Positions 28,272 through 46,318 of a DNA stretch of 64,000 bases are shown piece after piece. The first letter of the stretch is position 1, and every line of letters starts with the position of its first letter. Both the position numbers and the translations under genes were made by a program. The notes beneath the pieces are model-generated. The model worked only from the letters and a program-made list of their open reading frames with translations. It was not told the DNA's origin and did no database searches. The DNA is taken from contig NZ_JAAJTJ010000001.1 of the NCBI RefSeq assembly GCF_011030405.1, positions 62,001 to 126,000 on the forward strand, in the 5' to 3' direction. Source of the stretch: Parapedobacter sp. SGR-10 (GTDB lineage: Bacteria > Bacteroidota > Bacteroidia > Sphingobacteriales > Sphingobacteriaceae).

Positions 28272-28357
28272 ATCAGCATTTAGGCTGTAGGGATTAAGCT
28301 ATAGGCTAAATAACGCTTAAAGCCTAATGCTTACAGCTTACATTAAACAAATAAGAA

Positions 28358-28960: not shown

Positions 28961-29090
28961 CAAAGCGTAACTTGTGAAGGGATATAAAACAAGTTTACGA
29001 CTTGTTGAAAAGATCGGTCTTACAGCTAAGTTAAAAATTTAGCTTATCTCTACTCACAAGTTATCCCGACAAGTCAGAGTAAACTTGCGA
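28950..29090. repeat. Repeat with terminal inverted TCGCAAGTTTA ends
   Basis: A 141-bp element whose ends, TCGCAAGTTTA and TAAACTTGCGA, are perfect 11-bp inverted repeats. Its left end overlaps the 3' end of the preceding gene. Another copy is at 47381-47482 and a left-end fragment at 46362-46390. Confidence 0.8.
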
Positions 29091-29170
29091 GAGAAAAATA
29101 GTCATTATCAAAAAACTATAGTCATAAGCATAGGCCTCTTGCCTATAGCTTAAAGCAAAAAACAACACAG

Positions 29171-29623: not shown

Positions 29624-29635
29624 CAAAGTCACGCT

Positions 29636-30886
29636 ATGAATCATTTTCTATTTTTCATATTGAATCTAAATGTGTGTTTATCGATGGTAGTCGGCATGTC
29701 TCATGCCGCTACCATTCATGTAGGCAAGACACACGCTTTCAAATCCATCCACTCCGCCATTGCAAAAGCCAATGCCGGAGATACCATCCTGGTTCATAGC
29801 GGCCTTTATCAAGAAGGCAATATCAACATCGACAAAAGACTCACCCTGATCGGTATTGACCATCCTGTCATTGATGGAAAAAAAGAATACGAACCCATCT
29901 CCATACGGGTTGAAGGTGTCACGGTAAAGGGATTTACCATCCAGAACTCCGGGCATTCTTCGATGAATGACATTGCTGGCATCAAAATCTACAATACGAA
30001 CAACGTTACCATTACAGACAACATTCTGGACGACAATTTTTTCGGCATATATGCACAAGAGTCCAGGAACTGCCATATCGAAAACAACCGCCTTCGGGCA
30101 TATGGAAAAGCCGAGCACTTCGTCGGCAACGGTATCCATGCCTGGAAGAGCGACAGCATAACCATTGTCGGCAACGAAATCATGGGGCACCGTGACGGTA
30201 TCTACCTGGAGTTTGTGACCCACACCGAGGTGGACAGCAATCTCTCCCAAAACAACCTGCGCTACGGTCTCCACTTCATGTTTTCGCACGACAACAGCTA
30301 CCTGTACAATACCTTCACGTCCAATGGCGCCGGTGTGGCCGTGATGTACACCGACCGCGTGCGGATGGAGCACAATGTCTTCAACGAGAACTGGGGCGAT
30401 TCAGCCTATGGCCTACTGCTCAAAGACATCAGGGATAGCCACATACAGCACAATGTCTTTGCCAAGAACACCACCGCCATCTACATGGAAGGCAGCAACC
30501 GGATACAGATGCTCGACAACAGGTTCGAAAACAACGGTTGGGCCATCAAGATATTTTCCAGCTGCATGAACAATACACTGAGCAGAAACAGCTTTATCCA
30601 AAATACATTTGACATCGCGACAAACGGCGGCAGAATGACCAACCGCTTTGAAGAAAACTACTGGGACAAATACGAAGGCTATGATCTCGACAAGGACGGT
30701 ATCGGCGATGTGCCTCACCATCCGGTCAGCCTTTTCTCCATATTGGTCGAACGATACCCCTCTATGATGTTGCTCTTCCGCAGTTTTATGGTTACCTTGT
30801 TTGATCGTAGCGAAAAGTTGATTCCTTCATTGACACCCGAACATCTGAAGGACGACAAACCGCTCATGAAATCTGCTATAATATGA
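29636..30886 (+). CDS. nosD: NosD periplasmic copper-maturation protein
   Basis: A 416-residue exported protein. A signal peptide (LFFILNLNVCLSMVVGMSHA) precedes a right-handed beta-helix made of repeated rungs (NVTITDNILDDNFFGIYAQESRN, HNVFNENWGDSAYGLLLKDIRDSHIQHN), as in NosD. With the ATPase NosF and the permease NosY it delivers sulfur, and with NosL copper, to the CuZ site. Its 3' end overlaps nosF by 4 bases (ATGA). Confidence 0.96.
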   Translation: MNHFLFFILNLNVCLSMVVGMSHAATIHVGKTHAFKSIHSAIAKANAGDTILVHSGLYQEGNINIDKRLTLIGIDHPVIDGKKEYEPISIRVEGVTVKGFTIQNSGHSSMNDIAGIKIYNTNNVTITDNILDDNFFGIYAQESRNCHIENNRLRAYGKAEHFVGNGIHAWKSDSITIVGNEIMGHRDGIYLEFVTHTEVDSNLSQNNLRYGLHFMFSHDNSYLYNTFTSNGAGVAVMYTDRVRMEHNVFNENWGDSAYGLLLKDIRDSHIQHNVFAKNTTAIYMEGSNRIQMLDNRFENNGWAIKIFSSCMNNTLSRNSFIQNTFDIATNGGRMTNRFEENYWDKYEGYDLDKDGIGDVPHHPVSLFSILVERYPSMMLLFRSFMVTLFDRSEKLIPSLTPEHLKDDKPLMKSAII

Positions 30887-31620
30887 TTGAAATAAAACAA
30901 CTATCGAAGCATTTTGGCAAACTACAGGTACTCCGGGAAATCGATTTATCTCTGGAAGGAGGGCAATGTATATCTCTGATAGGGCCAAATGGCAGTGGCA
31001 AGACAACATTGATCAAATCCATCCTTGGTATGGTCATCCCCAGTTCGGGAACTATACATTTTGAAGGAAAAAATATCAGCCGCGAGTGGGCATACCGCAA
31101 TGACATAGGCTACATGCCACAGATAGGCGAATACCCCGAAAACATGAGTATAGGCCAAGTCTTGGATATGATGAAGGATATCCGCAAAATACCGGAAAAT
31201 CTTCTGGATACCGAGCTGTATGAAAAGTTTGAGCTCGACAAGATGCTGGACAAGCGTATGCGTACGCTATCCGGTGGTACCCGCCAAAAAGTGAGTGCCT
31301 GCCTTGCATTTATGTTCAGTCCCAAAGTCCTGATCCTCGATGAACCGACGGCCGGATTGGATCCCGTGGCGACCGAGATATTGAAAGATAAAATCATAGA
31401 CGAGAAGCACAAAAACAAACTTATCATGATCACTTCCCATGTACTCAGTGACCTCGATGATCTCGTCTCGCAGATCATATACATGCAGGATGGAAGGGTC
31501 ATGTTTCACAAATCTCTTGTCGAGCTAAAGGTCGACACAGGCACAAACAAACTGTCCAAAGCCATTGCCCACATCATGTCTCTCAAACAAGAACTTTCAA
31601 AAGAAACGATATATGAGTAA
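30883..31620 (+). CDS. nosF: NosF ABC transporter ATPase
   Basis: A 245-residue ABC ATPase. Walker A is GPNGSGKT (34-41), the signature region is MRTLSGGTRQKVSACLAF, and Walker B is VLILDEPTAGLDP. It pairs with NosY to energise assembly of the copper-sulfur site of NosZ. Overlaps of 4 bases with nosD and 8 bases with nosY show tight translational coupling. Confidence 0.96.
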   Translation: MIEIKQLSKHFGKLQVLREIDLSLEGGQCISLIGPNGSGKTTLIKSILGMVIPSSGTIHFEGKNISREWAYRNDIGYMPQIGEYPENMSIGQVLDMMKDIRKIPENLLDTELYEKFELDKMLDKRMRTLSGGTRQKVSACLAFMFSPKVLILDEPTAGLDPVATEILKDKIIDEKHKNKLIMITSHVLSDLDDLVSQIIYMQDGRVMFHKSLVELKVDTGTNKLSKAIAHIMSLKQELSKETIYE

Positions 31621-32383
31621 AAAGATCATCAAATACGTCATTACGGATCTGCTGCGCAACCGCACGGTATTGCTCTACACATTGGTTCTCCTTGCCTTGT
31701 CCCTGGGGGTATTCCTGATGGAGGACAACATCGACAAAGGTATAGCCAGTATGCTCAATATTGTTCTCTTTGTCGTGCCGTTGGTCAGTATTGTCTTCTC
31801 GACGATATATCTGTACAACAGCTCGGAGTTCATCGGCCTGCTGGTCAGTCAACCGCTCAAAAGGCAAAGTATCTGGCTGAGCATAGCTGTCGGTTTGGGT
31901 GTGATGATGGCATTTGCTTTCTTTGTCGGTATAGGGGTACCCACATTGATCTTTGCCTACAGTGCCTCAGGTCTCATGTTGATCGTAGCCGGGTTATTGC
32001 TCTCCGTGATATTCGTTTCCCTAGCCATGTGGACAGCCGTGTATATACGGGACAAATCCAAAGGTATAGGACTGGCCATTATCCTATGGCTTTATTTTGC
32101 GCTGATCTTCGATGCCATACTGCTGTTCCTGCTCTTTCAGTTTGCCGATTATCCTATCGAAAACATTATGGTAGCCATATCTATGCTCAACCCCATAGAC
32201 ATTAGCCGCATATTGGTATTGTTGGAGATAGACCTCTCTGCCATGATGGGATATACCGGTGCTATTTTCCGTGATTTCTTCGGAACTGGAGGTGGCATGT
32301 TCGTGACATTAGGTGTCATGTTGCTTTGGTTTGCGGTGCCGCTATGGCTGTCCAACCGTTATTTTAAGAAGAAGGACTTATAG
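31613..32383 (+). CDS. nosY: NosY ABC transporter permease
   Basis: A 256-residue inner-membrane protein with six helices, starting MSKKIIKYVITDLLRNRTVLLY and with the NosY landmarks FIGLLVSQPLKR and SMLNPIDISRILVLLEID. The long frame begins at 31565, but ATG at 31613, inside the last codons of nosF, gives the family start. It completes the NosFY transporter. A gap of 188 bp without genes follows. Confidence 0.95.
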   Translation: MSKKIIKYVITDLLRNRTVLLYTLVLLALSLGVFLMEDNIDKGIASMLNIVLFVVPLVSIVFSTIYLYNSSEFIGLLVSQPLKRQSIWLSIAVGLGVMMAFAFFVGIGVPTLIFAYSASGLMLIVAGLLLSVIFVSLAMWTAVYIRDKSKGIGLAIILWLYFALIFDAILLFLLFQFADYPIENIMVAISMLNPIDISRILVLLEIDLSAMMGYTGAIFRDFFGTGGGMFVTLGVMLLWFAVPLWLSNRYFKKKDL

Positions 32384-32571
32384 TCCTTTCACTTGTCACA
32401 GGCTTAAGCCTCCGTGGCAAATGAACAAAACTGACATCATTCTGACAGCTTTTACCCGCATTATGCGCGCGCGCATAAAACACACTTTGCATAGCCTGTA
32501 AATTTGTATATACCGCACGAGGAAAGTCGGGAAATTACATAATTTATACACTACATTAAAATACAAAAGCC
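32384..32571. other. Gap between nosY and the iron-sulfur repair gene, with a -7-like element
   Basis: No gene. TAAATTTG at 32499-32506 matches the -7 consensus and could start transcription of the ric operon. A GCGCGCGCGC run (32465-32474) sits upstream. Confidence 0.4.
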
Positions 32572-33492
32572 ATGATAAAAACAGCTCAATTAGATGTCAC
32601 GAAAATCGAACCACGGTTGAAACACCCTACCATTTTTGAACATTTCGATGCACTCGTCCAGGGCGAAGAATTCGAGATATTGAACGACCATGACCCCAAG
32701 CCGCTTTACTATCAGCTTTTGGGCGAACGTGGCAATATATTTACCTGGGAATACCTGGAAAATGGCCCGCAATGTTGGCGCGTACGCATCGCTAAACCTG
32801 CCGATGAAAATGCGGAGACTGTCGGTTCCATTGCCGCCAAAGATATCCGCAAAGCCGAAGTATTCAAAAAACTGGGTATAGACTTTTGTTGTGGCGGCAA
32901 AAAATCCCTTAAACAAGCTGCCGAATCCGTAGGTATAAGCGAAGTCGAGCTGAAAAACCATTTGTCCCAAGCCGAAAATATCCAAAGCAATGCCGCCCAC
33001 GATTTTGACAGTTGGGATCTTGGCTTTCTGGCGGACTATATCTACAATGTACATCATAAGTATGTACGTGAACAAGGCCCGATCATCGAGCAATTGGCCG
33101 ACAAGGTCGCTATGCGCCACGGCTCCGAGCACCATGAGCTGTTCCACCTCGCCGAAGGCATGCATGCTTTTATGGCCGATCTGTATGCTCACTTGAAAAC
33201 CGAAGAAGAAAGACTTTTTCCCATCGTCAAAAAACTGGCTTCAGGCGAAAAGGCCGATACACCGGAGGTGAAAAGTACCATTTCGGCCATGGAGGAAGAG
33301 CACGAAAGTGCAGGCGAAGAACTGCGCCAGTTCCGTATCTTGACCCAGGACTACAAATTGCCGCCAAATGCCTGCAATTCGTACACCTACCTGTTTGAAA
33401 AGATAAAGGAGTTCGAAAACGACCTGTTCCAACATATCCATTTGGAAAACAATGTGCTCTTTCCAAAGGCCATTGCGCTTCATCAAAACTAA
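32572..33492 (+). CDS. ric: RIC/ScdA-type di-iron protein with an N-terminal DUF2249 domain
   Basis: A 306-residue cytoplasmic protein that repairs iron-sulfur clusters damaged by nitric oxide or peroxide. The N-terminal part (1-75) is a DUF2249-type domain (GEEFEILNDHDPKPLYYQL); the middle has the ScdA_N motif FKKLGIDFCCGGKKSLKQA; the C-terminal hemerythrin-like domain carries the di-iron ligands in YIYNVHHKYVREQ, HHELFHLAEGMHAFMADLYAHLKTEEERLFP and HIHLENNVLFP. Its place after nosY fits protection during denitrification. Confidence 0.92.
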   Translation: MIKTAQLDVTKIEPRLKHPTIFEHFDALVQGEEFEILNDHDPKPLYYQLLGERGNIFTWEYLENGPQCWRVRIAKPADENAETVGSIAAKDIRKAEVFKKLGIDFCCGGKKSLKQAAESVGISEVELKNHLSQAENIQSNAAHDFDSWDLGFLADYIYNVHHKYVREQGPIIEQLADKVAMRHGSEHHELFHLAEGMHAFMADLYAHLKTEEERLFPIVKKLASGEKADTPEVKSTISAMEEEHESAGEELRQFRILTQDYKLPPNACNSYTYLFEKIKEFENDLFQHIHLENNVLFPKAIALHQN

Positions 33493-33507
33493 AAAAGCGT
33501 CGATATC

Positions 33508-34320
33508 ATGATACCTATAGATCCACATACCAAGATTTCGGCACTGATCAAGGCCAATGAAAAAAGCATTGACGCCATCGCATCGCTTGCCAAACCCTTG
33601 CAAAAGCTGAAAAATCCTTTGTTGCGCCGTATCATGGCCTCCCGGGTCACCATTGCGGAAGCGGCATCTATCGGTGAATGTACGGTAGCCGATTTCAAAC
33701 GCGTGCTGGAACCCTTAGGATTCGAAATGAACATCAGAGAAGATCAAAACCAGGCCGAGATCCTTACGAAACCGGCCTGGCTATCGGACGATATCCCTTG
33801 CACGACGCTCGATGTCCGCCAAACCATTGCCGATGGCCACGATCCATTGAAGGAGATCAATCAAAGCTATCATCAATTGGCCCAGGGACACATATTGTGT
33901 ATCGTCAATACGTTCATTCCCTATCCGCTGATCAAGCTATTGGAAGGCAAGGGAGCCCAGACATTTGTCGAGGCCATCGGCGAGCAGGAATATCGCACCT
34001 ATTTTCTCAAAGAAACTGTTGCAGTACCCTCCCACTCATCCTCTAGTATATCTACGTTGGGACTGTCAGATTTTGAAGCTATATTGGATAAATATGCAGA
34101 CAAAGATATCATCCGTCTCGATGTGCGCGAACTGCCCATGCCACAGCCTATGGAGACCATCTTGGAGACCCTACCCGGCATCGGTACAGGACAGGTACTC
34201 TTTGTCAACCACAAGCGCGTTCCGCTTCACCTGCTGGAAGAAATGGAAGAATATGATTACAAAATCCATATATGTGAAGTTGCTGAAGGTGACGTACGGT
34301 TGTTGATCTATCGATCCTAA
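33508..34320 (+). CDS. Protein with two DUF2249 domains
   Basis: A 270-residue cytoplasmic protein. The N-terminal ~70 residues resemble a DUF1858-like helical domain (HTKISALIKANEKSIDAIASLA). Two repeats of the DUF2249 fold follow, CTTLDVRQTIADGHDPLKEINQSYHQLAQGHILCIVNTFIPYPLIKLLEGKG and RLDVRELPMPQPMETILETLPGIGTGQVLFVNHKRVPLHLLEEME. DUF2249 also forms the start of the neighbouring RIC protein. Members gather in denitrification loci, but the molecular role is not established. Confidence 0.85.
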   Translation: MIPIDPHTKISALIKANEKSIDAIASLAKPLQKLKNPLLRRIMASRVTIAEAASIGECTVADFKRVLEPLGFEMNIREDQNQAEILTKPAWLSDDIPCTTLDVRQTIADGHDPLKEINQSYHQLAQGHILCIVNTFIPYPLIKLLEGKGAQTFVEAIGEQEYRTYFLKETVAVPSHSSSSISTLGLSDFEAILDKYADKDIIRLDVRELPMPQPMETILETLPGIGTGQVLFVNHKRVPLHLLEEMEEYDYKIHICEVAEGDVRLLIYRS

Positions 34321-34335
34321 AACTAAGAAAAGACC

Positions 34336-35625
34336 ATGGCAGACATATTTGTGAACAAGGCCCCAAAAGAACTCGCTGTCATTCCATTTTATGCGACGGC
34401 GGCCGTCTTCTTTTTATTGCTCAGTCTTTTGCTCTGTTTTTCGGCCCGTGAGCTTACCGGTCACTATTTCAATCCACATATTTTAGCTATCGTACATACG
34501 GCCGCATTGGGCTGGGGCACGATGATCATCTTTGGTGCAGCTTATCAATTGCTGCCTGTCATCTGCGAACAGGAGCTATTCAGTACGCGGCTAGCTTTCC
34601 TATCCTACCTTTTATTGACGGCAGGGAGCATCGGGCTGATTGTCTGCTTTTGGATATTTGATACAGGATGGGCCATGATTGTTTCCGGCTCGGCCGTGGT
34701 GCTGAGCAGTTACCTCTACGCCTTCAATATCTACAAAACTGCCAATGATACCAATCGGTCGCAGATACATCAAAACTTTCTGCTCATCTCAGCTTTTTGG
34801 CTCTGTTTTACGACAACGGTCGGATTGTTGCTGACCATCAACCTCAGCTATAATTTCATTCCCCGAAATCATTTGGACATCTTAAAATTGCATGCCCATG
34901 CAGGTATTGCCGGTTGGTTTTTGCAGTTGATATGTGGCGTGGGTGCCAAACTCATCCCCATGTTCCTGTTGGGAAAATCAAAAAGAAACTGGCTATTGCA
35001 TACCGCCTTGATCCTGCAAAACCTGGGACTTATCGCCTTTTTGGCCGATGGTTATTTCAATCCTATGCATGTACGGATGTACTTCTATGCACTGTTGGTC
35101 TTTCTGGGAACCCTATGTTGGCTACTCTATATTATCGATGCCTACCGCCATCGTGCACGCAAGAAAGCCGATACATTGATGCGGCACACACTCATTTCCC
35201 TGGTCGCACAAGGACTTGCTTTTGGTGTGATCCCGATCATGCTTTCAAACCATCAAACCAAATGGACAGCGCTGTACGGCACATTGATATTCCTCGGATG
35301 GATCACAGGCATTATCCTCGGCAAAACGTTCAAGACCTTGCCATTCATCGTATGGAACAAACGATACAAAAATCTGAACGGAACGGCCAAGATCCCCATG
35401 CCAAAGCATCTCTATAACGAAAACCTTATCCAGTACCAGTACTATGCTTATATTGGTACTATAGTATTGACATGTCTGGGCATCGTAGTGGATCACCGTC
35501 TGACGATACAGACCGCAGCGATACTATGGATTGTCATAGCTTTGGTATATGGCTATAATGTGTTTCGGATCGTTTTTCATCAGAATAAATCGTTTTTAAA
35601 AGGCGATGAAGCTTGCGTGATCTGA
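34336..35625 (+). CDS. Polytopic membrane protein related to oxidase subunit I / NnrS
   Basis: A 429-residue protein with about twelve membrane helices. His-containing motifs HILAIVHTAALGWGTMIIFGAAYQLLPV and LKLHAHAGIAGWFLQLICGVGAKLIPM resemble NnrS and the heme-binding helices of heme-copper oxidases. It is a distant relative of the protein at 23366. NnrS proteins are heme-copper membrane proteins induced in denitrifiers and linked to nitric oxide tolerance, so this role is likely but not shown. It follows the RIC and DUF2249 genes closely (15 bp), so it belongs to that operon. Confidence 0.7.
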   Translation: MADIFVNKAPKELAVIPFYATAAVFFLLLSLLLCFSARELTGHYFNPHILAIVHTAALGWGTMIIFGAAYQLLPVICEQELFSTRLAFLSYLLLTAGSIGLIVCFWIFDTGWAMIVSGSAVVLSSYLYAFNIYKTANDTNRSQIHQNFLLISAFWLCFTTTVGLLLTINLSYNFIPRNHLDILKLHAHAGIAGWFLQLICGVGAKLIPMFLLGKSKRNWLLHTALILQNLGLIAFLADGYFNPMHVRMYFYALLVFLGTLCWLLYIIDAYRHRARKKADTLMRHTLISLVAQGLAFGVIPIMLSNHQTKWTALYGTLIFLGWITGIILGKTFKTLPFIVWNKRYKNLNGTAKIPMPKHLYNENLIQYQYYAYIGTIVLTCLGIVVDHRLTIQTAAILWIVIALVYGYNVFRIVFHQNKSFLKGDEACVI

Positions 35626-35684
35626 TTATTCATATACTTTTTAGAGTGGCAGCTCATACAGGTTTCATAAAACCACTATAGATT

Positions 35685-36014
35685 ATGGAAATAAAGCTGA
35701 ATAACCCGTATGCACAGGAGGAACTCAAAGCACAGGTGGCACTGATGCAGGTCATCGATCCTGAGCTCAACGTCAATATTGTCGATCTCGGATTGGTGTA
35801 TGGCGTTGATTTTTCCACAGAAGGCCAAATTATTGTCCGAATGACCTTATCTACGCCGCATTGTCCGATGGGTGATGCCATTGAACAGGGTGTGTTGAAT
35901 GTACTACGGCAAACCTTTCCCGACAGGACACCTTCCATCCAACTTGTATGGGAACCCGAATGGAATTTCAATATGATTTCCGAAGCCGGGAAAGAACAGT
36001 TGAATTTACTTTAA
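35685..36014 (+). CDS. MIP18/DUF59-family iron-sulfur assembly protein
   Basis: A 109-residue cytoplasmic protein with the family core DPELNVNIVDLGLVYGVDF and MTLSTPHCPMGDAIEQGVLNVL; the single Cys in PHCPMG is the conserved one. Relatives (SufT, PaaD-like, MIP18) assist iron-sulfur cluster transfer. It is last in the rightward operon with RIC, DUF2249 and NnrS-like genes, which fits repair of damaged clusters. Confidence 0.88.
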   Translation: MEIKLNNPYAQEELKAQVALMQVIDPELNVNIVDLGLVYGVDFSTEGQIIVRMTLSTPHCPMGDAIEQGVLNVLRQTFPDRTPSIQLVWEPEWNFNMISEAGKEQLNLL

Positions 36015-36730: not shown

Positions 36731-37753
36731 TTATTTCCCTACAAATTCTCTGTCACTCAATGTCTTGATAAAAGAAATAATATCTTCTTTTTCCTGTTCG
36801 GTCATTGGTATCCTATTGCCATTATCTTTCAAAATGGGGTCAAGGTTATCCGCCTCCAAAACGCCAGTGTCAAAATAATCCAAAACAGCTCTCAATGTCG
36901 GAAACTGGCCAAAGCTGCCATAGGGCGCCGTGTATTCGGCATTCCGCAAAGAAGGTACCCTAAAACTCATGTAGTCCGCAGGAACTCCTGTCACCCTGGC
37001 ACGCCCTGCCTCTTCTGTACTCGGGTTGACAGGAAAGCCTACATTGCGAAAACTTTGGTCGGTAAACAGTTCTGTACCGTGACAGCTCGCACATTTTATT
37101 GTAAACGTTTGATAGCCCCGTGCTTCACTTTCCGTAAATACTTCACCTTCATTTCGTTTGACCTTATCGTACTTGCTGTTGGCCGAGACCAGCGTATATT
37201 CATACTGCGCAATACTCCGATAAATACGGTCTGGCGTAATATTTTCATCACCAAATGCTTTTCTGAACAACTCCTTATATTCATGGCCATCACTGATTTT
37301 TCCGATAACTTCCACAATAGAAGAATTCATCTCTTCGTGCGTGATGATCGGCACCAATGGCTGATTTTCCAAACGTAGCTTACTGCCGTCCCAATTATAA
37401 AATTTCATAAACGCCAGATTCTGAATAGGTGGCGTATTCCGAAGCCCGACCCGGCCATAAACCCCCACAGCCTGCACCTCATTGTCCGCAAAAGCATTGC
37501 CCCGATTGTGGCAACTGGCACAGGAAATCATATTATTGGTGCTGAATTTCTTTTCGTGGAAAAGCCTTTCGCCCAGTTCCACACCGTATTTTGTGGGTTT
37601 ATTTTCGTTTACCGCAGTGTTTAAGGACGGAAAGCCCATGGGTATATGCAATGGAATTTCGGGATTGTCATATGGCATCTGCTCAATATCATCCTCTCTG
37701 TTGCAGGATAGCAACAGCAAGAAGATGGATAATATGATGAGTACCTTTTTCAT
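36731..37753 (-). CDS. Di-heme peroxidase-like lipoprotein, MauG/MbnH type
   Basis: A 340-residue lipoprotein (lipobox LLSC, Cys17) with two heme-binding motifs, CASCH at 78-82 and CASCH at 221-225, in the order and spacing of the cytochrome c peroxidase/MauG family. It is last in a leftward operon directly after an MbnP-like gene; MbnH-MbnP is a known pair in which the di-heme enzyme converts a Trp of MbnP to kynurenine. That pairing, rather than peroxide removal, is my preferred role. A 272-bp gap with two interspersed repeats separates the two genes. Confidence 0.85.
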   Translation of the reverse strand: MKKVLIILSIFLLLLSCNREDDIEQMPYDNPEIPLHIPMGFPSLNTAVNENKPTKYGVELGERLFHEKKFSTNNMISCASCHNRGNAFADNEVQAVGVYGRVGLRNTPPIQNLAFMKFYNWDGSKLRLENQPLVPIITHEEMNSSIVEVIGKISDGHEYKELFRKAFGDENITPDRIYRSIAQYEYTLVSANSKYDKVKRNEGEVFTESEARGYQTFTIKCASCHGTELFTDQSFRNVGFPVNPSTEEAGRARVTGVPADYMSFRVPSLRNAEYTAPYGSFGQFPTLRAVLDYFDTGVLEADNLDPILKDNGNRIPMTEQEKEDIISFIKTLSDREFVGK

Positions 37754-37775
37754 ATATAATACAAGTTCCTTGCGC

Positions 37776-37897
37776 CGTCATTTCGATGAGGAGGTACGAC
37801 GAAGAGAAATCTATGGCTGGAAAGAAAGTTATCTTGTGTCCTCAGATTCCTCCTCGTACCTCCCCGAATGCTTTCGGGGCAAGCTCTCGGAATGACG
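37776..37897. repeat. Interspersed repeat with CGTCATTTCG / CGGAATGACG ends
   Basis: About 120 bp with inverted ends (CGTCATTTCGA and TCGGAATGACG) and inner complementary arms (GAGGAGGTACGA with TCGTACCTCC; CCCCGAATGCTTTCGGGG). This is a common type of Bacteroidota intergenic repeat. It lies inside the copper operon between the MbnH-like and MbnP-like genes. Confidence 0.7.
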
Positions 37898-37914
37898 ATA
37901 TAGTTTTCTTTTTT

Positions 37915-38006
37915 GTCATCCCGACTTTGGAGAGCCTGTCCGAACATTGGAAGATCTGCAATGTAACCTTTCATACGACAGATCCCTCGGCAAGCTTCGG
38001 GATGAC
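37915..38006. repeat. Interspersed repeat with GTCATCCCGA / TCGGGATGAC ends
   Basis: About 92 bp with inverted ends GTCATCCCGA and TCGGGATGAC. It directly follows the repeat at 37776-37897. Confidence 0.7.
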
Positions 38007-38025
38007 AATTGGATGTTACTATTTA

Positions 38026-38889
38026 TTAATTCTCTACACTACCGATAGAAAACATGCCCGAGATATCACTTGTCCCGTTTCCACCGATATTATCCACAAA
38101 TTTTACCATATTTTCCATGCTACTATGATAACTCGGGGTTGTCGCATTGCCTCCAACCAAAACCATTGTGTTACTTTTTCCACTCAGGAGTTTATCAAAA
38201 TCGGCATTGATCGTGATCTTAGGCGTATTTTTGCCGACAACCGCATTATTAGGAAGGACCAAGGCGATATCCCGATAGGCGTCTACACCTTGTGTATAGG
38301 TATCTGGATCACCCTCAGTTCCATCCACGGTACTCCCGGTATGAATAGACATAGACTTGTTATCCACATCATAAAAACCTTCGATTTTGGTAAAACGATA
38401 ACCGGTTGCCCATTGCCACATCATTTCGGTATCATTAGCTCCGGCCTCGGCATAGAATTTAGGGAATTTGACCTCATCCAACGTGTTGAGTTCCCACTTC
38501 ACACCCAGACCGAATTTGATCTGCCTGTATTCTCCTACGGGAATATTGCTGAGCACATAGTCCAAGGTCTGCGGTTTTGCATGGTTTACGACGGTCGCTC
38601 CTTTGTCCAGATCATTGATATGATACGGAAACTCACCTCCGTCCGCTTTGACGAGGCGGATGTTACTGATCACATACTTCAATTCTGAAAAGCGGTGTAC
38701 CTGCCCCTCGACAGACGTGTTCACCGTGGCCGTAGTCGAGGCAGCATCCCCGAGTACGATAGTTGTATTTTTGAAAGTATTGTTGAAATGCAATGTGATA
38801 TTGTTGGCAACAGGGTTCTCGTCCTTTTCACAGGATGCCAATACCGATACCATTGCCAATAGAAAGAAATATTTTGTTAATGTTTTCAT
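38026..38889 (-). CDS. MbnP-like copper-binding lipoprotein
   Basis: A 287-residue lipoprotein (lipobox LASC, Cys20) with the MbnP family pattern: LHFNNTFKN near the N-terminus, FSELKYVISNIRLV, MMWQWATGYRFTKIEGFY and later MSIHTGS. In MbnP a conserved Trp is oxidised to kynurenine by its di-heme partner and the protein binds Cu(I); W158 and W160 in MWQW are the candidates here, with H183 in a likely copper-site motif. The frame extends to 38961, but ATG at 38889 gives a normal signal. It lies between an HCDGxC gene and the MbnH-like gene. Confidence 0.82.
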   Translation of the reverse strand: MKTLTKYFFLLAMVSVLASCEKDENPVANNITLHFNNTFKNTTIVLGDAASTTATVNTSVEGQVHRFSELKYVISNIRLVKADGGEFPYHINDLDKGATVVNHAKPQTLDYVLSNIPVGEYRQIKFGLGVKWELNTLDEVKFPKFYAEAGANDTEMMWQWATGYRFTKIEGFYDVDNKSMSIHTGSTVDGTEGDPDTYTQGVDAYRDIALVLPNNAVVGKNTPKITINADFDKLLSGKSNTMVLVGGNATTPSYHSSMENMVKFVDNIGGNGTSDISGMFSIGSVEN

Positions 38890-38953
38890 GGATTTATTAT
38901 TTGATTGTGTTTTCTGATTTAGTGACCTATTTGAATAAAACTTTGATAGTAAA

Positions 38954-39319
38954 TCAGACAATCGGTGGCGGCACGAAGATTTCGCGACAGGGCTCCCTAT
39001 AGCAAATCTCCTGATAACGCGGCATAATACTACTTATGTCAACCGTTATATTTCTCGCCTCAAACCTGTGGAATGAAATGGGCAACATATCTACTTTAGG
39101 ATACATAGCGGCAGGGGCCGAATCCGAACTTCCGGATTTCTGCAACTGTTTTTTCAAGAAGCACGTACCGTCACAATGCAGTTCTGGCCTGTCTTTGTTA
39201 ACACAAAATTTCTGTTCGATGATCTCCTGATTGAGTTTGAAGTGCATCACGATAATTGCCTGCTGAAAGCCGATCAGCAAGGATAATACCATCAATAACA
39301 CACTAACAGGTTTTTTCAT
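38954..39319 (-). CDS. Small exported HCDGxC protein, candidate copper binder (copy 2)
   Basis: A 121-residue protein with an N-terminal hydrophobic segment (VSVLLMVLSLLIGFQQAIIVM) and the motif CVNKDRPELHCDGTC (39-53), that is C-x9-C-x3-C with an adjacent His. Further cysteines are at 106 and 111, and the chain ends in FVPPPIV. The protein at 42402 has the same motif and a similar Pro-rich end. The Cys/His set and the setting among copper-type genes suggest metal binding outside the cytoplasm; no function is established. Its ATG is 4 bp after the receptor stop codon. Confidence 0.78.
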   Translation of the reverse strand: MKKPVSVLLMVLSLLIGFQQAIIVMHFKLNQEIIEQKFCVNKDRPELHCDGTCFLKKQLQKSGSSDSAPAAMYPKVDMLPISFHRFEARNITVDISSIMPRYQEICYREPCREIFVPPPIV

Positions 39320-39323
39320 CTTT

Positions 39324-41315
39324 CTAGAAGCTGAATTTTAACGAAGTGAAAATATTGCGCCCCATCCTTGGGATATTGCCCCAATCTGCATAGGTACTGT
39401 AATGCTCGTTGAACAGGTTTTCTGCCCCAGTCTGCAAAACCATTTTATAGTTTTTAAAGCTGAATGTATAATCCGCGGAGATATTCCACACCGTATAGGC
39501 CGGTGTCTGATCCTCGCCATATTCAGGACTGTAATTCCGCTGTGCGAGGTCACCGTTTACAGCAGTACGAACACCAAACTGCCTGTGCATAAAATAAAGT
39601 GATGTCTGGTAGCTCAACGGACGGATGAAAGGTAAGTTCCCGTTTTTGTCGTCCGTTGCCCGGGCATAGGTAAGCGTTCCCTTCCAATGCAGGTGTTGCA
39701 GTATATCGTAATTGGCATTCAGTGCCAGATTGAAAAGCTTAGCGTGATCCAAGGAAGTGTATCCCTTCACCCCGACCGATTGATAGTTCATCGGGCTGCC
39801 CAAACTCAAAATCTGACCAACGATATAATGCTGTATATGGAAATAGTTTGCTTTAGCTTCTATACCCATTCGCTTATTTTTGAACCCTGCACTTGCATTG
39901 GCCTCATAGGAAATCTCGTTTTTCAGATCAGGATTTCCGATGTAGTCGTAGCGGTCAAAACTGTTGTAGATATAATATCCATACCCCTCCGAAACCGATG
40001 GTGCTCTATGCCCGTAACCTGTTCCGACAGAAAAATCAAATTGATTTATATGCAGTTGATAACTGGTATGCAAGCCGGGCAACACCCTATTTTTTTCCTG
40101 TGGTGTGCCGGGATGGAAGATCCAGTTGAACTCCACATATTTGGAATGGTTGTAATTCCAGCCCAAAGATCCGCCGAAATTCAATCGGCTCCTTTCCGAA
40201 ATATCCCATGCATTATTCATCGAAAGCCCTGCAAAGCGGGTCGTGACCCAGGGCCAGCTATAGGCAAACATCGTTTTCTTGCTCCGGTCTTGCGGATACA
40301 TCGTCATCTCCGCGATGGAGAGGTTGTCGTAAGCGTTCAGCTGGATTTCGGACGAATAATCGTCCTTCTTCAGATGGACCTTGGACACTAGCCCGTAGGT
40401 AGTACTCCAACCCGGCATATCCATATGGACAAGATTTTCAGGACGTGTGGTGTCATCCATATAGTGTTCAACAGCGTTGAAATAAATCTTGCTATCCCAG
40501 ACCCGCAGCAACCCATCTTCAAACAGCTGTTTGTAGGATGCCGATGTAATGATCGCACGCGAGAGCCACAGATCCATGGGGAGTGCCGGAAAGCCTACAT
40601 CTTTGGCTTTATCATAGATCGCATCTATACGCACGGAGGAGAGCGGACTGGTCTTGTAGGCCAATCCTAGGGAAGTGTTAAATTTGTTGTACTGTGAATG
40701 GTCGATCTCCCTGTCTTTTCCGTCATAATAATTGCCCGCCTTACGGAATGAAATACTACCGTCTGCCACAAACCTATCGTCGGAATAAGAAACGTTGCCG
40801 AGGTTGAAATACTGCCTGTTGTTAAATTCAAATCCGGTCTGGTACGCCCCACCCCATTTCTTTTCCATACCGAATGGAGTACTTTTCCTCCTGAGGTCTA
40901 TACTTCCGGCCACGGTCGCACCATGTAGGCTACCTTCCTGACCGGAAGTAATGTCTATGGTCGCCAGGTTATTGCTTTCGACATACGAGGTGATTGGGTC
41001 CATTTTGTCGGTACAGGCACCAAATACGTGCATTCCGTCTATCGTGAGCGTAGAGCGTTCCGTACTCATGTTGTTGAGCAAAGGCTCCCAAGCATATGCA
41101 CCCCGCTTGATAAAACTGATATTGTCGGACGATGCCAAAAACTCATCCACCGAAACCGCCATTTTCATGTCTGTCTCGATCTTGCGCTTGGCAATAGCTG
41201 TCACGGTCACCTCGTCCAGCCGTTTGGTGCTGTCGCTGTGCACATGTCTATGTTGGGCTTGTACATTCATTCCCAAAGAAAGGACCAAAAAGGAAATGCT
41301 TATCTTTTTTATCAT
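39324..41315 (-). CDS. TonB-dependent receptor, OprC/NosA-like (copper)
   Basis: A 663-residue outer membrane receptor with a signal peptide (ISFLVLSLGMNVQA), a His-rich start (QHRHVHSD), a plug domain (VTVTAIAKRK, SGQEGSLHGATVAGSIDLR) and a 22-strand barrel ending in an aromatic residue (FTSLKFSF). The plug contains CTDKM (C101, M105), a CxxxM motif, and the barrel HYM (H284, M286), an HxM motif; these are the copper-ligand motifs known in OprC. A further HMDM follows at 297-300. The start at 41315 is placed 1 bp after the stop of the FixH-like gene; the frame extends 10 codons more. Confidence 0.88.
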   Translation of the reverse strand: MIKKISISFLVLSLGMNVQAQHRHVHSDSTKRLDEVTVTAIAKRKIETDMKMAVSVDEFLASSDNISFIKRGAYAWEPLLNNMSTERSTLTIDGMHVFGACTDKMDPITSYVESNNLATIDITSGQEGSLHGATVAGSIDLRRKSTPFGMEKKWGGAYQTGFEFNNRQYFNLGNVSYSDDRFVADGSISFRKAGNYYDGKDREIDHSQYNKFNTSLGLAYKTSPLSSVRIDAIYDKAKDVGFPALPMDLWLSRAIITSASYKQLFEDGLLRVWDSKIYFNAVEHYMDDTTRPENLVHMDMPGWSTTYGLVSKVHLKKDDYSSEIQLNAYDNLSIAEMTMYPQDRSKKTMFAYSWPWVTTRFAGLSMNNAWDISERSRLNFGGSLGWNYNHSKYVEFNWIFHPGTPQEKNRVLPGLHTSYQLHINQFDFSVGTGYGHRAPSVSEGYGYYIYNSFDRYDYIGNPDLKNEISYEANASAGFKNKRMGIEAKANYFHIQHYIVGQILSLGSPMNYQSVGVKGYTSLDHAKLFNLALNANYDILQHLHWKGTLTYARATDDKNGNLPFIRPLSYQTSLYFMHRQFGVRTAVNGDLAQRNYSPEYGEDQTPAYTVWNISADYTFSFKNYKMVLQTGAENLFNEHYSTYADWGNIPRMGRNIFTSLKFSF

Positions 41316-41316
41316 C

Positions 41317-42243
41317 TTAGAACAAAATATCGATATGTAATTCACTTTTCACGCCCTCCACACCGGGTGTAAAGTCCGTGGGCACTATAGTACCTTTCAG
41401 TATCTGCCCCTGTTGGTTCAATAGGATAAAGTTCAACGTCCAGTTTCCCGTCATGGTGTAATTCACGACCCCGTGGTACAAACCATCGTTTTGCTGTGTC
41501 AGATCTTTATTGTTTTCGGAGGAATGGTTGCCCATGGAAGGTTCGGGCATCCGTGGGTCTAACTGTAAGGTATAACCGCTCACCTCGGTGTACGAAAACT
41601 GCGAGGCATCGGGAAAATCTCCGGATGGCGGGTCGGTCGGCTTGTTGTATCTGTAAATTCCGGCAATCAGTTCATGCTCGCCAACTTTGGGTTTTTGCGG
41701 TGCCACCAAAGCGATGAAGTACTGCTCATCGTCCTTTCCGACAAATGCCGTCATATTTAGGTTTTTATTGACCTGCTCTTTAATAGAAATATCCTGCTTT
41801 GCCGTATGGGTTTGCCCTGCAATGGTGAAGCTGATGTAAAGCTCCCAGCTTCGCCCCGAACTGCTTTCATCCGTAAACACCGCATATCCCCAATAATAAC
41901 TGTCATCCGTTCCATGCACTAAGTCGTATCGATGAGGGCAAGAGGACTGACCGCCGTCGGCACTGGTCATGACAGGTAAAAAGGTCACCGCCGAAGCACT
42001 TATCTCTTCGTTGGTCTGGCCATTCGTAATCTTTAGACGGATTTCATTGTAGCCCTTATAGAACGTTCCGTTCAAGGCTTCAATATTGACTTCATAACCA
42101 TCGCTATGTATGGTATAAGCCTCTTTAAACTCATGGTACTCGGTAACTACCGTATCTATTTCCCCTTCGTAATCCGTTTTTTCTTTGGTACAAGACACCA
42201 CCGCAAAGCATAATGCAGTGAGAAAAAATAGTAGTTTTTTCAT
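41317..42243 (-). CDS. FixH/YtkA-like lipoprotein
   Basis: A 308-residue lipoprotein (lipobox VVSC, Cys18) with two immunoglobulin-like halves. The second half has the YtkA/FixH-type pattern LDPRMPEPSMGNHSSENN followed by GLYHGVVNYTMTGNWTLNFILL, with Met and His in a loop typical of copper-binding members. The first half has a weaker version (FLPVMTS, CPHRYDLVHG). It lies upstream of the OprC-like receptor with 1 bp between stop and start, so it is probably its partner on the outer-membrane side. Confidence 0.78.
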   Translation of the reverse strand: MKKLLFFLTALCFAVVSCTKEKTDYEGEIDTVVTEYHEFKEAYTIHSDGYEVNIEALNGTFYKGYNEIRLKITNGQTNEEISASAVTFLPVMTSADGGQSSCPHRYDLVHGTDDSYYWGYAVFTDESSSGRSWELYISFTIAGQTHTAKQDISIKEQVNKNLNMTAFVGKDDEQYFIALVAPQKPKVGEHELIAGIYRYNKPTDPPSGDFPDASQFSYTEVSGYTLQLDPRMPEPSMGNHSSENNKDLTQQNDGLYHGVVNYTMTGNWTLNFILLNQQGQILKGTIVPTDFTPGVEGVKSELHIDILF

Positions 42244-42401
42244 CTGAGATGAATTATTAATCCAATATTTCGTGAAAACTTATTTGAAATGAATGTAGCA
42301 AGCATGATCAATTTCGATCTCGTATCACCACCAAAGCGATAGACGAAAATTCCATTAAAAATCTGTCAAGCCGAAACTAAGCTACATCCAATCGGTATGG
42401 A

Positions 42402-42770
42402 CTAACTGATCGGAGGGCGGAATATGGGGGTATTGTAGTTAAATCTGTAATCAATCAGATAAGGCGAAAAAGGTTTGTCGAGGGGTTCTTCATTGGGCCG
42501 GTATAGGGTCAATACAGGACGCTCCTTATGCACATAAAGCGCACTGTATTCATATACCAAAAGATTCTTTTTCGTCTCCTCTTTCTCTTTTTCCCTGATT
42601 TTCTTCATCAGCACACACTGACCATCACAATGGAGCTGAGGTTTGTCCTTGTTGATACACATTGCAATGTAGTCGGGCAGGTGTATCTGATATTCTACGG
42701 CCATGATACTGCGATAAAATGATTGCAGTGTCAAAGCGAGCAATAGAATATATGTACAAAGAGTTCTCAA
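42402..42770 (-). CDS. Small exported HCDGxC protein, candidate copper binder (copy 1)
   Basis: The first gene of the leftward operon. After a signal or anchor segment (TLCTYILLLALTLQSFY) it carries CINKDKPQLHCDGQC, the same C-x9-C-x3-C layout as the protein at 38954, then a Lys/Glu-rich stretch and a Pro-rich end (FRPPIS). The frame is open to a TTG at 42806 (134 residues), with a GTG at 42803. A TACCTTTG -7 element covers 42804-42811, which would make those starts untranscribed, so I favour TTG at 42770; this choice is uncertain. Confidence 0.72.
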   Translation of the reverse strand: MRTLCTYILLLALTLQSFYRSIMAVEYQIHLPDYIAMCINKDKPQLHCDGQCVLMKKIREKEKEETKKNLLVYEYSALYVHKERPVLTLYRPNEEPLDKPFSPYLIDYRFNYNTPIFRPPIS

Positions 42771-42803
42771 AACTTTCTGGTTCTTATCGTAATTAACCTT
42801 CAC

Positions 42804-42811
42804 CAAAGGTA
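42804..42811 (-). promoter_or_regulatory. Probable -7 element of the copper operon
   Basis: TACCTTTG on the minus strand matches TAnnTTTG. It overlaps the longest possible start of the first gene, so it bears on start choice. Confidence 0.5.
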
Positions 42812-43050: not shown

Positions 43051-45153
43051 ATGGAAAAATACGTAATCAAGAGAAATGGAAACTACGAACCGCTGCTGCC
43101 CTACAAAATCCAGGACGCCATCGACAAAGGTTTCAAAAGTGTGGCTTACCCCATCGATGACCGTGTGTACGAGAAAGTTTTGCGAGACCTGAGAAACCAA
43201 GATACTTGGAGCGTGGAAGAAATCCAAAACGCCATCGAACGCCACCTGTATGAACTGGGTTATTTCGAAGTCATGAGATCCTTCATGCTATATCGGCACA
43301 CCCGCAAGTTGCAACGTGAACACATCGACGGTTTTAACGATGACACCACCTATGTGGACAGCAGCCAGACCGTCGAAGAATATATACACCAGATCGACTG
43401 GCGCATCAATGCCAATGCCAACACCTCCTATTCCAATGCCGGATTGATCAACAATACCGCCGGAAAGATCATTGCCAACTATTGGCTGGACAAGGTGTAC
43501 AGCAAGGAAGAAGGCTATGCACACCGCAATGGAGACCTCCATATCCACGACTTGGACTGCCTCACGGGATATTGTGCCGGATGGAGCCTCAGGGTACTGC
43601 TGGACGAAGGATTCAACGGGGTCCGTGGACGTGTGGAAAGCCGCCCTCCATCACACTTTAGGGAGGCTTTGGGACAGATGGCCAACTTTTTAGGGATCCT
43701 TCAAAGTGAATGGGCAGGTGCACAAGCGTTCAGCTCTTTTGATACGTACCTCGCACCTTATGTATTCAAGGACAAACTGGACTACACAGCAGTGCTCAAG
43801 GCCGTACGCAGTTTTGTCTACAACCTCAATGTACCGGCCCGGTGGGGACAATCACCTTTTACCAACATCACCCTGGACTGGAACGTGCCACAGGATCTGC
43901 AAGAACAGATGCCCACACGAGGAGGACAGCACCTATTCAAAAATCTACAAGACGCCGAACTGCTCCTCGAAGCACAACAACGGGGTGTACAACAGCTCGA
44001 AGACCTCTGCTATCGCCATTTCCAACACGAAATGGACATGATCAACAAAGCCTATTATACCGTCATGACGGAAGGCGATGCCAATGGGCAACCGTTTACC
44101 TTTCCCATCCCAACGGTCAATATCACCGAGGATTTTGATTGGCAAAGCGAAAATGCACAACTCCTGTTCGAGAATACGGCCAAGATAGGCTCTTCCTATT
44201 TCCAAAACTTTATCGGTAGCCAATACATTCTGGATGAAAATGGCCAAAAGGTCGAAAACCCCGACGCCTACAAACCCAATGCTGTACGTAGCATGTGCTG
44301 CCGGTTGCAGTTGGACCTACGCGAGCTGCTCAAACGAGGCAACGGCCTATTCGGCAGTGCCGAAATGACCGGAAGCATCGGCGTAGTAACGATCAATATG
44401 GCCCGACTGGGCTACCTCTACAAAGGTCGGGAGCAGCAGCTGATCGAGCGTTTGGATCAGTTGCTGTTGCTGGCCAAGTCTACCTTGGAAAAAAAACGAA
44501 GATTCATACAGCAGATGTACGACAATGGGCTATTCCCCTATACCAAACGCTACCTGCCCCATTTCCGCAATCACTTCTCGACCATCGGTGTCAATGGCAT
44601 GAACGAAATGATACGTAATTTTACCGATGATCAGGAGAACATGATCACCGAATGGGGCAAAACCTTCGCTTCCGATATGCTCGATCATATCCGTACGCGG
44701 CTCCGTGAATTCCAAGAAGAAACGGGCAATCTCTACAACCTCGAGGCTACACCTGCCGAGGGGACGACCTATCGTTTTGCCAAAGAAGACAAAAAACGGT
44801 TTTCGGACATCCTGCAAGCCGGTGAGGATGAAAATATCTATTATACCAACAGTTCGCAGATACCCGTGGACCATACGGACGATCCCTTCGAGGCACTGTT
44901 GCTACAGGATCAACTGCAATGTAAGTACACCGGAGGCACTGTTCTGCACCTCTACATGAGCGAGCGTATCAGTACGCCCGATGCCTGCCGGGAATTCGTA
45001 CGTACCGTCCTCTCCAACTTTAAACTACCGTATATTACCGTCACACCTGTATTCAGCATCTGCCCCGTGCATGGCTACCTCAATGGCGAGCACGAATACT
45101 GCCCACAATGCGACGATATCATTGTCTCAAACCACTCAAATATAAATACATGA
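43051..45153 (+). CDS. nrdD: Anaerobic ribonucleoside-triphosphate reductase, catalytic part without glycyl-radical domain
   Basis: A 700-residue protein. An ATP-cone lies at 1-90 (KYVIKRNGNYEPLLPYKIQDAIDKGF), then the reductase barrel with HDLDCLTGYCAGWSL, the conserved SMCCRLQLDLREL and MTGSIGVVTINMARLGY. It ends with the zinc site CPVH...CPQC (C671, H674, C684, C687) and stops 13 residues later. The usual last ~60 residues with the radical Gly are missing and are encoded instead by a separate gene at 45472-45648. Class III enzymes make deoxynucleotides without oxygen and need this radical. Confidence 0.93.
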   Translation: MEKYVIKRNGNYEPLLPYKIQDAIDKGFKSVAYPIDDRVYEKVLRDLRNQDTWSVEEIQNAIERHLYELGYFEVMRSFMLYRHTRKLQREHIDGFNDDTTYVDSSQTVEEYIHQIDWRINANANTSYSNAGLINNTAGKIIANYWLDKVYSKEEGYAHRNGDLHIHDLDCLTGYCAGWSLRVLLDEGFNGVRGRVESRPPSHFREALGQMANFLGILQSEWAGAQAFSSFDTYLAPYVFKDKLDYTAVLKAVRSFVYNLNVPARWGQSPFTNITLDWNVPQDLQEQMPTRGGQHLFKNLQDAELLLEAQQRGVQQLEDLCYRHFQHEMDMINKAYYTVMTEGDANGQPFTFPIPTVNITEDFDWQSENAQLLFENTAKIGSSYFQNFIGSQYILDENGQKVENPDAYKPNAVRSMCCRLQLDLRELLKRGNGLFGSAEMTGSIGVVTINMARLGYLYKGREQQLIERLDQLLLLAKSTLEKKRRFIQQMYDNGLFPYTKRYLPHFRNHFSTIGVNGMNEMIRNFTDDQENMITEWGKTFASDMLDHIRTRLREFQEETGNLYNLEATPAEGTTYRFAKEDKKRFSDILQAGEDENIYYTNSSQIPVDHTDDPFEALLLQDQLQCKYTGGTVLHLYMSERISTPDACREFVRTVLSNFKLPYITVTPVFSICPVHGYLNGEHEYCPQCDDIIVSNHSNINT

Positions 45154-45476
45154 TACAAGAAGAACACGTCATACAGATAGAACGCATGCTACATTACACG
45201 ATGTGTTTGCACGGGCTTTGTTAAATGCTATCCCTCTCTGGAGAGGGGCGTGGAAGGCAAAGGGCTGGATTGGGAGAGGGAAAATTTTCAAAATTCTGAA
45301 AATAAGCCACTTGAGTAACATCCTCCCCCTACCCCCTCAAAGAGGGGGACAACGTTCTACAAAGGCAATTCGAGAACAAAGTTGTAGAACAAACAACAAG
45401 AGGACATACACAATGACAAAAAACTTTTTTGTTATGTATTAAGTCAAAAATAAACACTCAAATATAAATACATGAT
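45133..45476 (+). repeat. Two 22-bp direct repeats flanking a 300-bp insert at the end of nrdD
   Basis: An identical 22-bp sequence starting CACTCAAATATAAATACATG occurs at 45133-45154, where it contains the nrdD stop codon, and at 45455-45476, where it contains the start of the glycyl-radical gene. The insert holds a short remnant frame (45150-45224) whose ERML matches the start of the intact small gene, a CCCTCTCTGGAGAGGGG-type interspersed repeat (about 45230-45355) and a GTTCTACAA/TTGTAGAAC hairpin (45354-45391). Confidence 0.85.
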
Positions 45477-45648
45477 GATTACAAACACCACAGAACGTAT
45501 GCTGATCTTGCAGCAAAATCAGCAACAACGCAGCAAATGCCTGGTTTACACACGTGTAATGGGCTATCACAGACCGGTCGAAAGCTTTAACATCGGCAAA
45601 AAGGGCGAGCATCGCCAACGCACACACTTTAAAGAAAAGTATGCCTAA
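45472..45648 (+). CDS. Free-standing glycyl-radical domain of class III ribonucleotide reductase
   Basis: A 58-residue protein. Its core, CLVYTRVMGYHRPVESFNIG, is the C-terminal glycyl-radical motif of NrdD (RVxGYxxPVxxFNxGK); Gly31 would carry the radical. The N-terminal 22 residues are Gln/Asn-rich and may dock onto NrdD. It supplies exactly the part missing from the 700-residue NrdD upstream. Its stop overlaps the nrdG start by 8 bases, so it is coupled to the activase. A second ATG lies at 45475. Confidence 0.9.
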   Translation: MMITNTTERMLILQQNQQQRSKCLVYTRVMGYHRPVESFNIGKKGEHRQRTHFKEKYA

Positions 45649-46318
45649 GCCTATTTATAGCATTACACCGTTCACCATGCTGGACTATCCAAACCATACA
45701 GCCTGCATCCTCTGGTTTGCGGGCTGTAATATGCGTTGCGTGTACTGCTATAATCCAGACATTGTGCTGGGCAAAGGAAAGCTTTCTATTGGGGAGGCGA
45801 CACAGTTTCTCCGATCCCGCCAAAACCTCCTGCAAGGAGTTGTATTCAGCGGCGGGGAATGCACCCTGCACCCCTCACTGGTCTCGTTGGCCCGAGAGGC
45901 CAAGGCAATGGGTTATCTGGTCAAGGTCGATACCAACGGAACAAGGCCCAAGATGTTGGAAAAAATGCTATCTGAAAAGCTTATAGATTACATAGCCTTG
46001 GATTTCAAGGGTATCGGAAAACAACATGAAGCTATCACGGTATCCAAGACCTTCCACACCTTTGCCAAGACTTTAGCTTTGCTGCAGCATTCAGCCATTC
46101 CTTTTGAGATAAGGACCACCTGGCATGAGGCACTCTATTCCAGAGAAGATATCGGACAGATGGTTCAATATCTGGAAGAGCATAGCTATCAAGGGGAATA
46201 TTTTATCCAATACTTCCGCAATGATGTGCCCACGCTTGAGCAATTGCCTTATCATGCTTCGAGGTTGGATGCCGCCGAATTGTCTACCGCAGATATCCAG
46301 GTGAAGATAAGGGGATGA
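45641..46318 (+). CDS. nrdG: Anaerobic ribonucleotide reductase activating enzyme
   Basis: A 225-residue radical-SAM protein with CNMRCVYC (CxxxCxxC) binding the [4Fe-4S] cluster, VVFSGGECTLHPSL and VKVDTNG. It generates the glycyl radical on NrdD from S-adenosylmethionine. It is 8 bases into the end of the small glycyl-radical gene, which supports that this gene makes its substrate. The length suits the NrdG2-like activases, with an extended C-terminus compared with the E. coli 154-residue form. Confidence 0.92.
   Translation: MPKPIYSITPFTMLDYPNHTACILWFAGCNMRCVYCYNPDIVLGKGKLSIGEATQFLRSRQNLLQGVVFSGGECTLHPSLVSLAREAKAMGYLVKVDTNGTRPKMLEKMLSEKLIDYIALDFKGIGKQHEAITVSKTFHTFAKTLALLQHSAIPFEIRTTWHEALYSREDIGQMVQYLEEHSYQGEYFIQYFRNDVPTLEQLPYHASRLDAAELSTADIQVKIRG

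Follow-up and report, generated by a model that had tools for sequence, protein, structure and literature searches.

What do six adjacent genes on the minus strand, 8.5 kb from a nitrous oxide reductase gene (nosZ), do in Parapedobacter sp. SGR-10, and why do two of them encode small cysteine-motif proteins that have no Pfam match above cut-off? The genes lie in a 64,000-nucleotide stretch of contig NZ_JAAJTJ010000001.1 (positions 62,001 to 126,000; hereafter the window, from whose first letter all positions are counted), where open reading frames (ORFs) for all six are present in the region 36731-42806. Read along the minus strand, they encode a small protein here called hcd1, a YtkA-like lipoprotein, a TonB-dependent receptor, a second small protein (hcd2), an MbnP-like lipoprotein and an MbnH/MauG-like di-haem enzyme. 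The first-pass annotation of this DNA had listed the same six genes, and Pfam names the YtkA-, MbnP- and MbnH-like ones above cut-off. We read the locus as an operon with which Sphingobacteriaceae acquire copper, headed by one copper-sensing leader peptide and containing another, and give this reading, including the mechanism proposed below, a probability of about 0.6.

The six genes form a real and widely conserved bacterial operon. A receptor-based scan of 84,980 species genomes, of which the best 80 loci (74-87% identical) were kept, returned loci from Sphingobacterium, Parapedobacter, Olivibacter, Pedobacter, Chitinophagaceae, Flavobacterium, Chryseobacterium and others, and the gene order was found again in Sphingobacteriaceae, Chitinophagaceae and Flavobacteriales. 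The first-pass annotation had proposed looking for the same order in other Bacteroidota; the core order YtkA-receptor-MbnP-MbnH is kept in all 80 loci and is not a product of chance. The hcd1 gene is present in 78 of them, the other two being contigs that end at that point, and hcd2 is present in 40. No account of the operon was found in the open-access literature searched (supplementary lists were not covered, here and below), which is weak evidence.

The case for leader peptides rests on what is conserved in hcd1 and hcd2, which align as a single family. Across 37 diverse members, the only invariant residues are C38, C48, G50, C52, P119 and P120. A Pro-Pro pair near the C-terminus occurs in all 118 operon copies (78/78 for hcd1 and 40/40 for hcd2), although Pro-Pro is found in the last 20 residues of only 1.2% of all ORFs and 1.7% of similar-sized ORFs at the same loci. 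The pair stands in the context [IV]F[HRK]PP or FVPPP and follows the CxGxC motif at a distance of 62-73 residues. Among hcd1 orthologues it is written with 15 different codon pairs, and 34 of the 40 residues invariant among close relatives have variable codons; this synonymous variation indicates that selection acts on the protein. The structure model of hcd1 is confident for the N-terminal helix only. The first-pass annotation had recognised both genes as HCDGxC proteins, which they are, but had missed the fixed C-terminal Pro-Pro and the resemblance to leader peptides. On these sequence features, hcd1 and hcd2 look more like built-in copper sensors than like working proteins.

The same features extend well beyond this operon. 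The family profile matches 101 of 247 Bacteroidota genomes and 49 of 121 genera, and 73 of 74 distinct copies taken from fetched genome stretches have Pro-Pro near the end, with 62-73 residues between it and CxGxC here as well. The sole member without it (L115, G006:C21:166000-171800) ends in NTVLH and is perhaps a frameshift, or represents a lineage that has lost the arrest site. By profile, the same-strand genes after hcd copies are MbnP plus MbnH in 24 cases, YtkA plus receptor in eight and a receptor alone in 12; among those tested of the 28 copies left unclassified, Pfam gave TonB receptors, SCO1 and PCuAC. Across Bacteroidota, hcd homologues head MbnPH, TonB-receptor and SCO1/PCuAC operons. 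One locus (L106, G206:C1:3635780-3639145) has a tandem pair of hcd leader genes before a single downstream gene, and in four others (L125, L126, L144 and L146) a His-rich hcd subfamily heads an operon of outer-membrane-protein, SCO1 and PCuAC genes. In the open-access literature searched, we found no paper on the hcd family or on its double use in one operon.

The closest known parallel is CruR of Bordetella pertussis, the 145-amino-acid (aa) exported first ORF of the bfrG/crtA operon, which has a CXXC motif, carries RAPP at its C-terminus and is separated by 162 bp from a TonB receptor gene (PMC9426467, PMC12914433). Its arrest at Pro-Pro has been demonstrated in vitro; once the nascent chain senses copper, the arrest is relieved and Rho then terminates transcription. 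Members of the CruR family are also found at the head of OprC, MbnPH, Sco and PCuAC operons (PMC9426467, PMC12914433). With CruR, hcd1 shares a small exported first ORF, a Cys motif, a C-terminal Pro-Pro, a long gap and a downstream TonB receptor, and hcd homologues share its operon partners (MbnPH, receptor, SCO1/PCuAC). The two differ in their Cys motif (CXXC in CruR/DUF2946, C-x9-CxGxC in hcd), in their ending (RAPP versus FxPP) and in the residues between these motifs (45 versus 62-73); moreover, the CruR operon has a CrtA-like receptor, whereas that of the window has an OprC-like one and a second leader inside. Membership of the small proteins in DUF2946 or any other Pfam family is not supported: neither has a match above cut-off, and a comparison with three DUF2946 sequences detected no homology. 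DUF2946 precedes a copper receptor or MbnP on Pandoraea and Ideonella plasmids, and on the Ideonella dechloratans plasmid (L166, 1125-6142) a DUF2946 gene of the CruR family comes before MbnP and TonB-receptor genes, which makes the locus a Pseudomonadota counterpart of the operon.

By analogy, hcd1 and hcd2 would act as leader peptides that are exported. At low copper, the ribosome would stall at the C-terminal [IV]F[HRK]PP or FVPPP and the downstream genes would be expressed, whereas copper on the nascent C-x9-CxGxC would relieve stalling and turn downstream expression off, as in CruR. In this scheme hcd1 would gate the entire operon and hcd2 would gate mbnPH separately. The promoter signals fit hcd1 as leader: 66 of 78 orthologous loci have the element TAnnTTTG upstream of the CxGxC codons, at a distance of 120-230 nt and mostly of 171-185 nt, whereas within the hcd1-ytkA gap it is, if anything, rarer than chance (12 of 78 loci, against 19 expected from simple two-base block shuffles). 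The long gap after hcd1 also contrasts with the gaps of 1-4 bp at the receptor.

A broader version of this reading, to which we give somewhat less than even odds, is that hcd proteins are copper-sensing arrest peptides used across Bacteroidota and unrelated to CruR, employed twice in one operon and also heading receptor modules in nos clusters. Given the length of the ribosomal tunnel and the translocon, 62-73 residues between CxGxC and Pro-Pro would place the copper site beyond both tunnel and SecYEG at the stall, from where it could read periplasmic copper. Such a mechanism of copper control would be testable and phylum-wide, and it gives the unannotated hcd family a specific prediction, namely that copper control fails when the prolines or cysteines are altered.

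The main competitor is that both small proteins function in their finished form, as ordinary copper chaperones anchored in the membrane on the periplasmic side, with Pro-Pro as part of a binding surface. The N-terminal helix, the Cys-rich motif and the moderate conservation of the middle part among close relatives would suit such a role, but in distant homologues conservation is limited to the Cys motif, the terminal Pro-Pro and the spacing between them, the model has low confidence outside the helix, and hcd genes are placed at operon heads. We therefore regard chaperones as rather unlikely.

Several points nevertheless weigh against copper-sensing leaders. The centre of hcd1, moderately conserved among close relatives, may reflect a protein function, and hcd2 is absent from half of the operons. 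The FxPP motif differs from the RAPP and RGPP motifs with tested arrest, and in another study most RAPP-like sequences gave no arrest. The hhalign probability between hcd and DUF2946 is 0.1%, with three DUF2946 sequences only, and the shuffles behind the expected promoter counts are simple ones. The hcd1-ytkA gap contains no conserved RNA structure, the alignment decaying past the hcd1 stop codon, and a terminator scan of it came out below chance. Arrest, copper binding and the copper response of the operon are themselves predictions drawn from analogy.

That the operon takes up copper, as the first-pass annotation had it, is well supported by the OprC copper ligands of the receptor, by the YtkA and MbnP/MbnH neighbours and by the related leaders that head SCO1/PCuAC operons. 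Pfam gives the receptor a weak Plug match only, and its only sequence matches among Protein Data Bank (PDB) structures are OprC entries. C111-TDK-M115 aligns with OprC Cys143/Met147 and H294-Y-M296 with His323/Met325, the four OprC copper ligands, and each of C111, M115, H294 and M296 is at least 98% conserved among 79 orthologues. The receptor scores 81 bits against the NCBIfam copper-receptor model TIGR01778, far below the cut-off of 472, and its best NCBIfam score (91.8 bits) is to a haem-family model, whose cut-offs are likewise not reached. Since it falls under the copper-receptor cut-off, we consider it OprC-like in its predicted copper site and not an OprC orthologue. Compared with OprC/NosA (PMC8610252), it has the CxxxM and HxM ligands in common and differs by low overall identity, its sub-cut-off TIGR01778 score and its other neighbours. 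It would carry copper across the outer membrane through this Cys-Met-His-Met site. Import of haem, or of copper chelated by a chalkophore or a small organic ligand, in place of ionic copper would agree with the higher haem-family score and with CrtA, which is known to import chelated copper; however, all four OprC copper ligands are invariant and the conserved Cys and Met are missing from CrtA, so we think this alternative unlikely.

The remaining proteins are consistent with handling of envelope copper. The YtkA-like protein (PF13115, 33.5 bits) has invariant M232, M237, H240 and M264 and an all-beta model with a mean pLDDT of 86; in Foldseek one of its domains resembles the Helicobacter pylori copper-resistance protein CrdA (PDB 9ll2; target TM 0.72, rmsd 3.5 Å) at a probability of 1.00, yet only at rank 25 with E 2.3e-3. 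It would bind copper in the envelope and pass it on. So would MbnP, which exceeds its Pfam gathering score clearly (PF20243, 116.6 versus 27 bits), falls below the NCBIfam TIGR04052 cut-off (56.7 versus 140 bits) and has no meaningful PDB relative by sequence. Its W182, W184, H89 and H207 are invariant in 73 sequences, with W182/W184 at least 98% conserved. The MbnH-like protein (CCP_MauG, PF03150, 161.5 bits) is likewise below its NCBIfam cut-off (TIGR04039, 194.5 versus 362.9 bits), and both of its CxxCH haem motifs are conserved. The copper site of CorA/MopE consists of two His together with a Trp-derived kynurenine (PMC3912023). By this analogy we infer that MbnH probably oxidises a Trp of MbnP, which would create a copper site. 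The window genes resemble MbnP/MbnH pairs (PMC3621798) and CorA/MopE (PMC3912023) in combining a di-haem MauG-like enzyme with a WxW partner and differ from the former pairs in lying under both NCBIfam cut-offs. No methanobactin genes were recognised adjoining the operon.

The first-pass annotation had further proposed that the operon imports copper for NosZ. Among 151 genomes of the family, counted by hand (contig breaks make the NosZ linkage counts lower bounds), 15 receptors are at least 65% identical to that of the window. Seven of these are in genomes without nosZ, and of the eight in nosZ genomes two lie within 15 kb of it, in the genome studied here and in G352 (arranged as in L006); in the scan, nosZ lies within about 10 kb of one receptor locus in 80. 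A general linkage of this operon family to NosZ was therefore rejected, its orthologues being mostly far from nosZ or in nosZ-less genomes. In contrast, of 22 sister receptors (31-41% identity), which carry the same CxxxM and HxM copper site and their own YtkA, 18 are in nosZ genomes and 12 of these lie within 11 kb of nosZ, where about 0.1 would be expected by chance. Four genomes (G297, G343, G358 and G367) have the window-type operon elsewhere and a sister receptor beside nosZ. All 13 nos-linked sister loci examined (L154, L158, L169-L179) contain YtkA plus receptor and eight have an hcd leader, the common order ending PaaD-like-(hcd)-YtkA-receptor-nrdD; in L175 and L176 this block lies within the nos cluster. 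In the window, the six-gene operon lies between a PaaD-like gene and nrdD and so fills the slot, in the opposite orientation.

Because congeners hold the sister YtkA-receptor pair in the same slot, a role for NosZ is plausible in this genome. The operon probably imports copper generally, for cuproenzymes at large, and in this genome takes the place of the NosZ-linked importer, so that it would probably feed NosZ too. Dedication to NosZ alone would account for the 8.5-kb distance and for the operon occupying a place that sister modules regularly take in nos clusters; it is improbable in view of the nosZ-less genomes, the rarity of nosZ near orthologues and the four genomes that keep the two systems apart. 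The general importer would be a concrete copper source for NosZ of clade II, by which the greenhouse gas N2O is removed, and, if the leaders act as proposed, copper supply for N2O reduction would be under translational control. In the open-access literature searched, we found no description of YtkA-receptor modules or hcd leaders in nos clusters. In a phylum sample, hcd and nosZ lie within 15 kb of each other in five of about 32 Bacteroidota genomes with both, this one included, and in one distant Bacteroidota locus (L132, G212:C42:1500-7200) a nosD-like gene comes immediately after hcd-YtkA-receptor.

A 2023 study catalogued 5,334 CutF-like proteins, many from Bacteroidota (PMC9973294). Both hcd proteins pass its filter: they are shorter than 150 aa, have Pro-Pro in the last 15 residues and an N-terminal export-like signal (recognised by the hydrophobic helix rather than with SignalP), and are followed by a same-strand gene within 1 kb. 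The main text of that study mentions neither the hcd family nor this operon, and a 2025 survey restricted to strict RAPP/RGPP leaders reported none related to copper in Bacteroidota. CutF-like proteins have thus been known computationally since 2023. CutF itself is unlike hcd, with CxxxC, a stem-loop in a short gap and activation of a multicopper oxidase (PMC9973294). That the leaders follow CutF logic, with copper prolonging stalling and activating downstream genes, is very improbable even though CutF, too, is small and exported and combines a Cys motif with prolines at its end. CutF acts through a short gap with a stem-loop, whereas 87-543 nt of unconserved sequence follow hcd1, and copper repression is expected for an import operon. 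Without a conserved gap structure, a Rho-type or other unstructured mechanism fits better.

Features of the operon in window coordinates
Feature	Position	Strand	Basis or remark
Bacteroidota -7 promoter element TACCTTTG (TAnnTTTG)	42804..42811	-	upstream of operon; sequence reading
hcd1, candidate copper-sensing leader peptide, 122 aa, TTG start	42402..42770	-	N-terminal hydrophobic helix, C-x9-CxGxC, C-terminal IFRPPIS; family alignment
hcd1 CxGxC codons (CDGQC), candidate copper site, plus upstream invariant C38	42615..42629	-	invariant alignment columns
hcd1 Pro-Pro codons, candidate arrest site (IFRPP)	42411..42416	-	invariant in orthologues
hcd1-ytkA gap, 158 nt, candidate attenuation region	42244..42401	-	87-543 nt among orthologues
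YtkA-like lipoprotein, 308 aa	41317..42243	-	PF13115, conservation, CrdA-like domain
TonB-dependent receptor, OprC-type copper ligands	39324..41315	-	OprC PDB matches; ATG 41315, GTG 41345 open too
Receptor CTDKM codons, CxxxM copper motif, on OprC Cys143/Met147	41001..41015	-	
Receptor HYM codons, HxM copper motif, on OprC His323/Met325	40458..40466	-	
hcd2, second candidate leader peptide, operon-internal, 121 aa, end EIFVPPPIV	38954..39319	-	same family as hcd1
hcd2-mbnP gap, 64 nt	38890..38953	-	
MbnP-like lipoprotein, 287 aa	38026..38889	-	PF20243; WQW motif 38410-38418
MbnH/MauG-like di-haem enzyme	36731..37753	-	PF03150; two CxxCH motifs

Two gene starts were revised. The first small gene had been begun at TTG 42806, a codon that falls within the -7 element (42804-42811). 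Because of this overlap, and because 10 of the 13 listed relatives have a TTG 47 or 48 codons ahead of CxGxC (the remaining three use other starts), we place the start at TTG 42770, 47 codons ahead of CxGxC. The MbnP start was corrected to ATG 38889, 64 nt past hcd2. The 1-bp and 4-bp spacings reported at the receptor hold (41317 to ATG 41315; 39324 to 39319).

On one side of the operon, positions 25710-36014 hold a clade II (Sec) nosZ cluster with cytochrome, nosD and ABC genes, two unassigned proteins where nosL usually lies, an iron-sulfur repair protein (RIC/YtfE), and DUF2249, NorB/COX1-like membrane and PaaD/SufT-like proteins. On the other, anaerobic ribonucleotide reductase genes (nrdD-nrdG, 43051-46318) adjoin it, as they also flank the nos-linked receptor modules of congeners, and the region may be an anaerobiosis island. 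The mbnP-mbnH gap (37754-38025) is built of a dispersed intergenic repeat, pieces of which match about 40 places in the genome.

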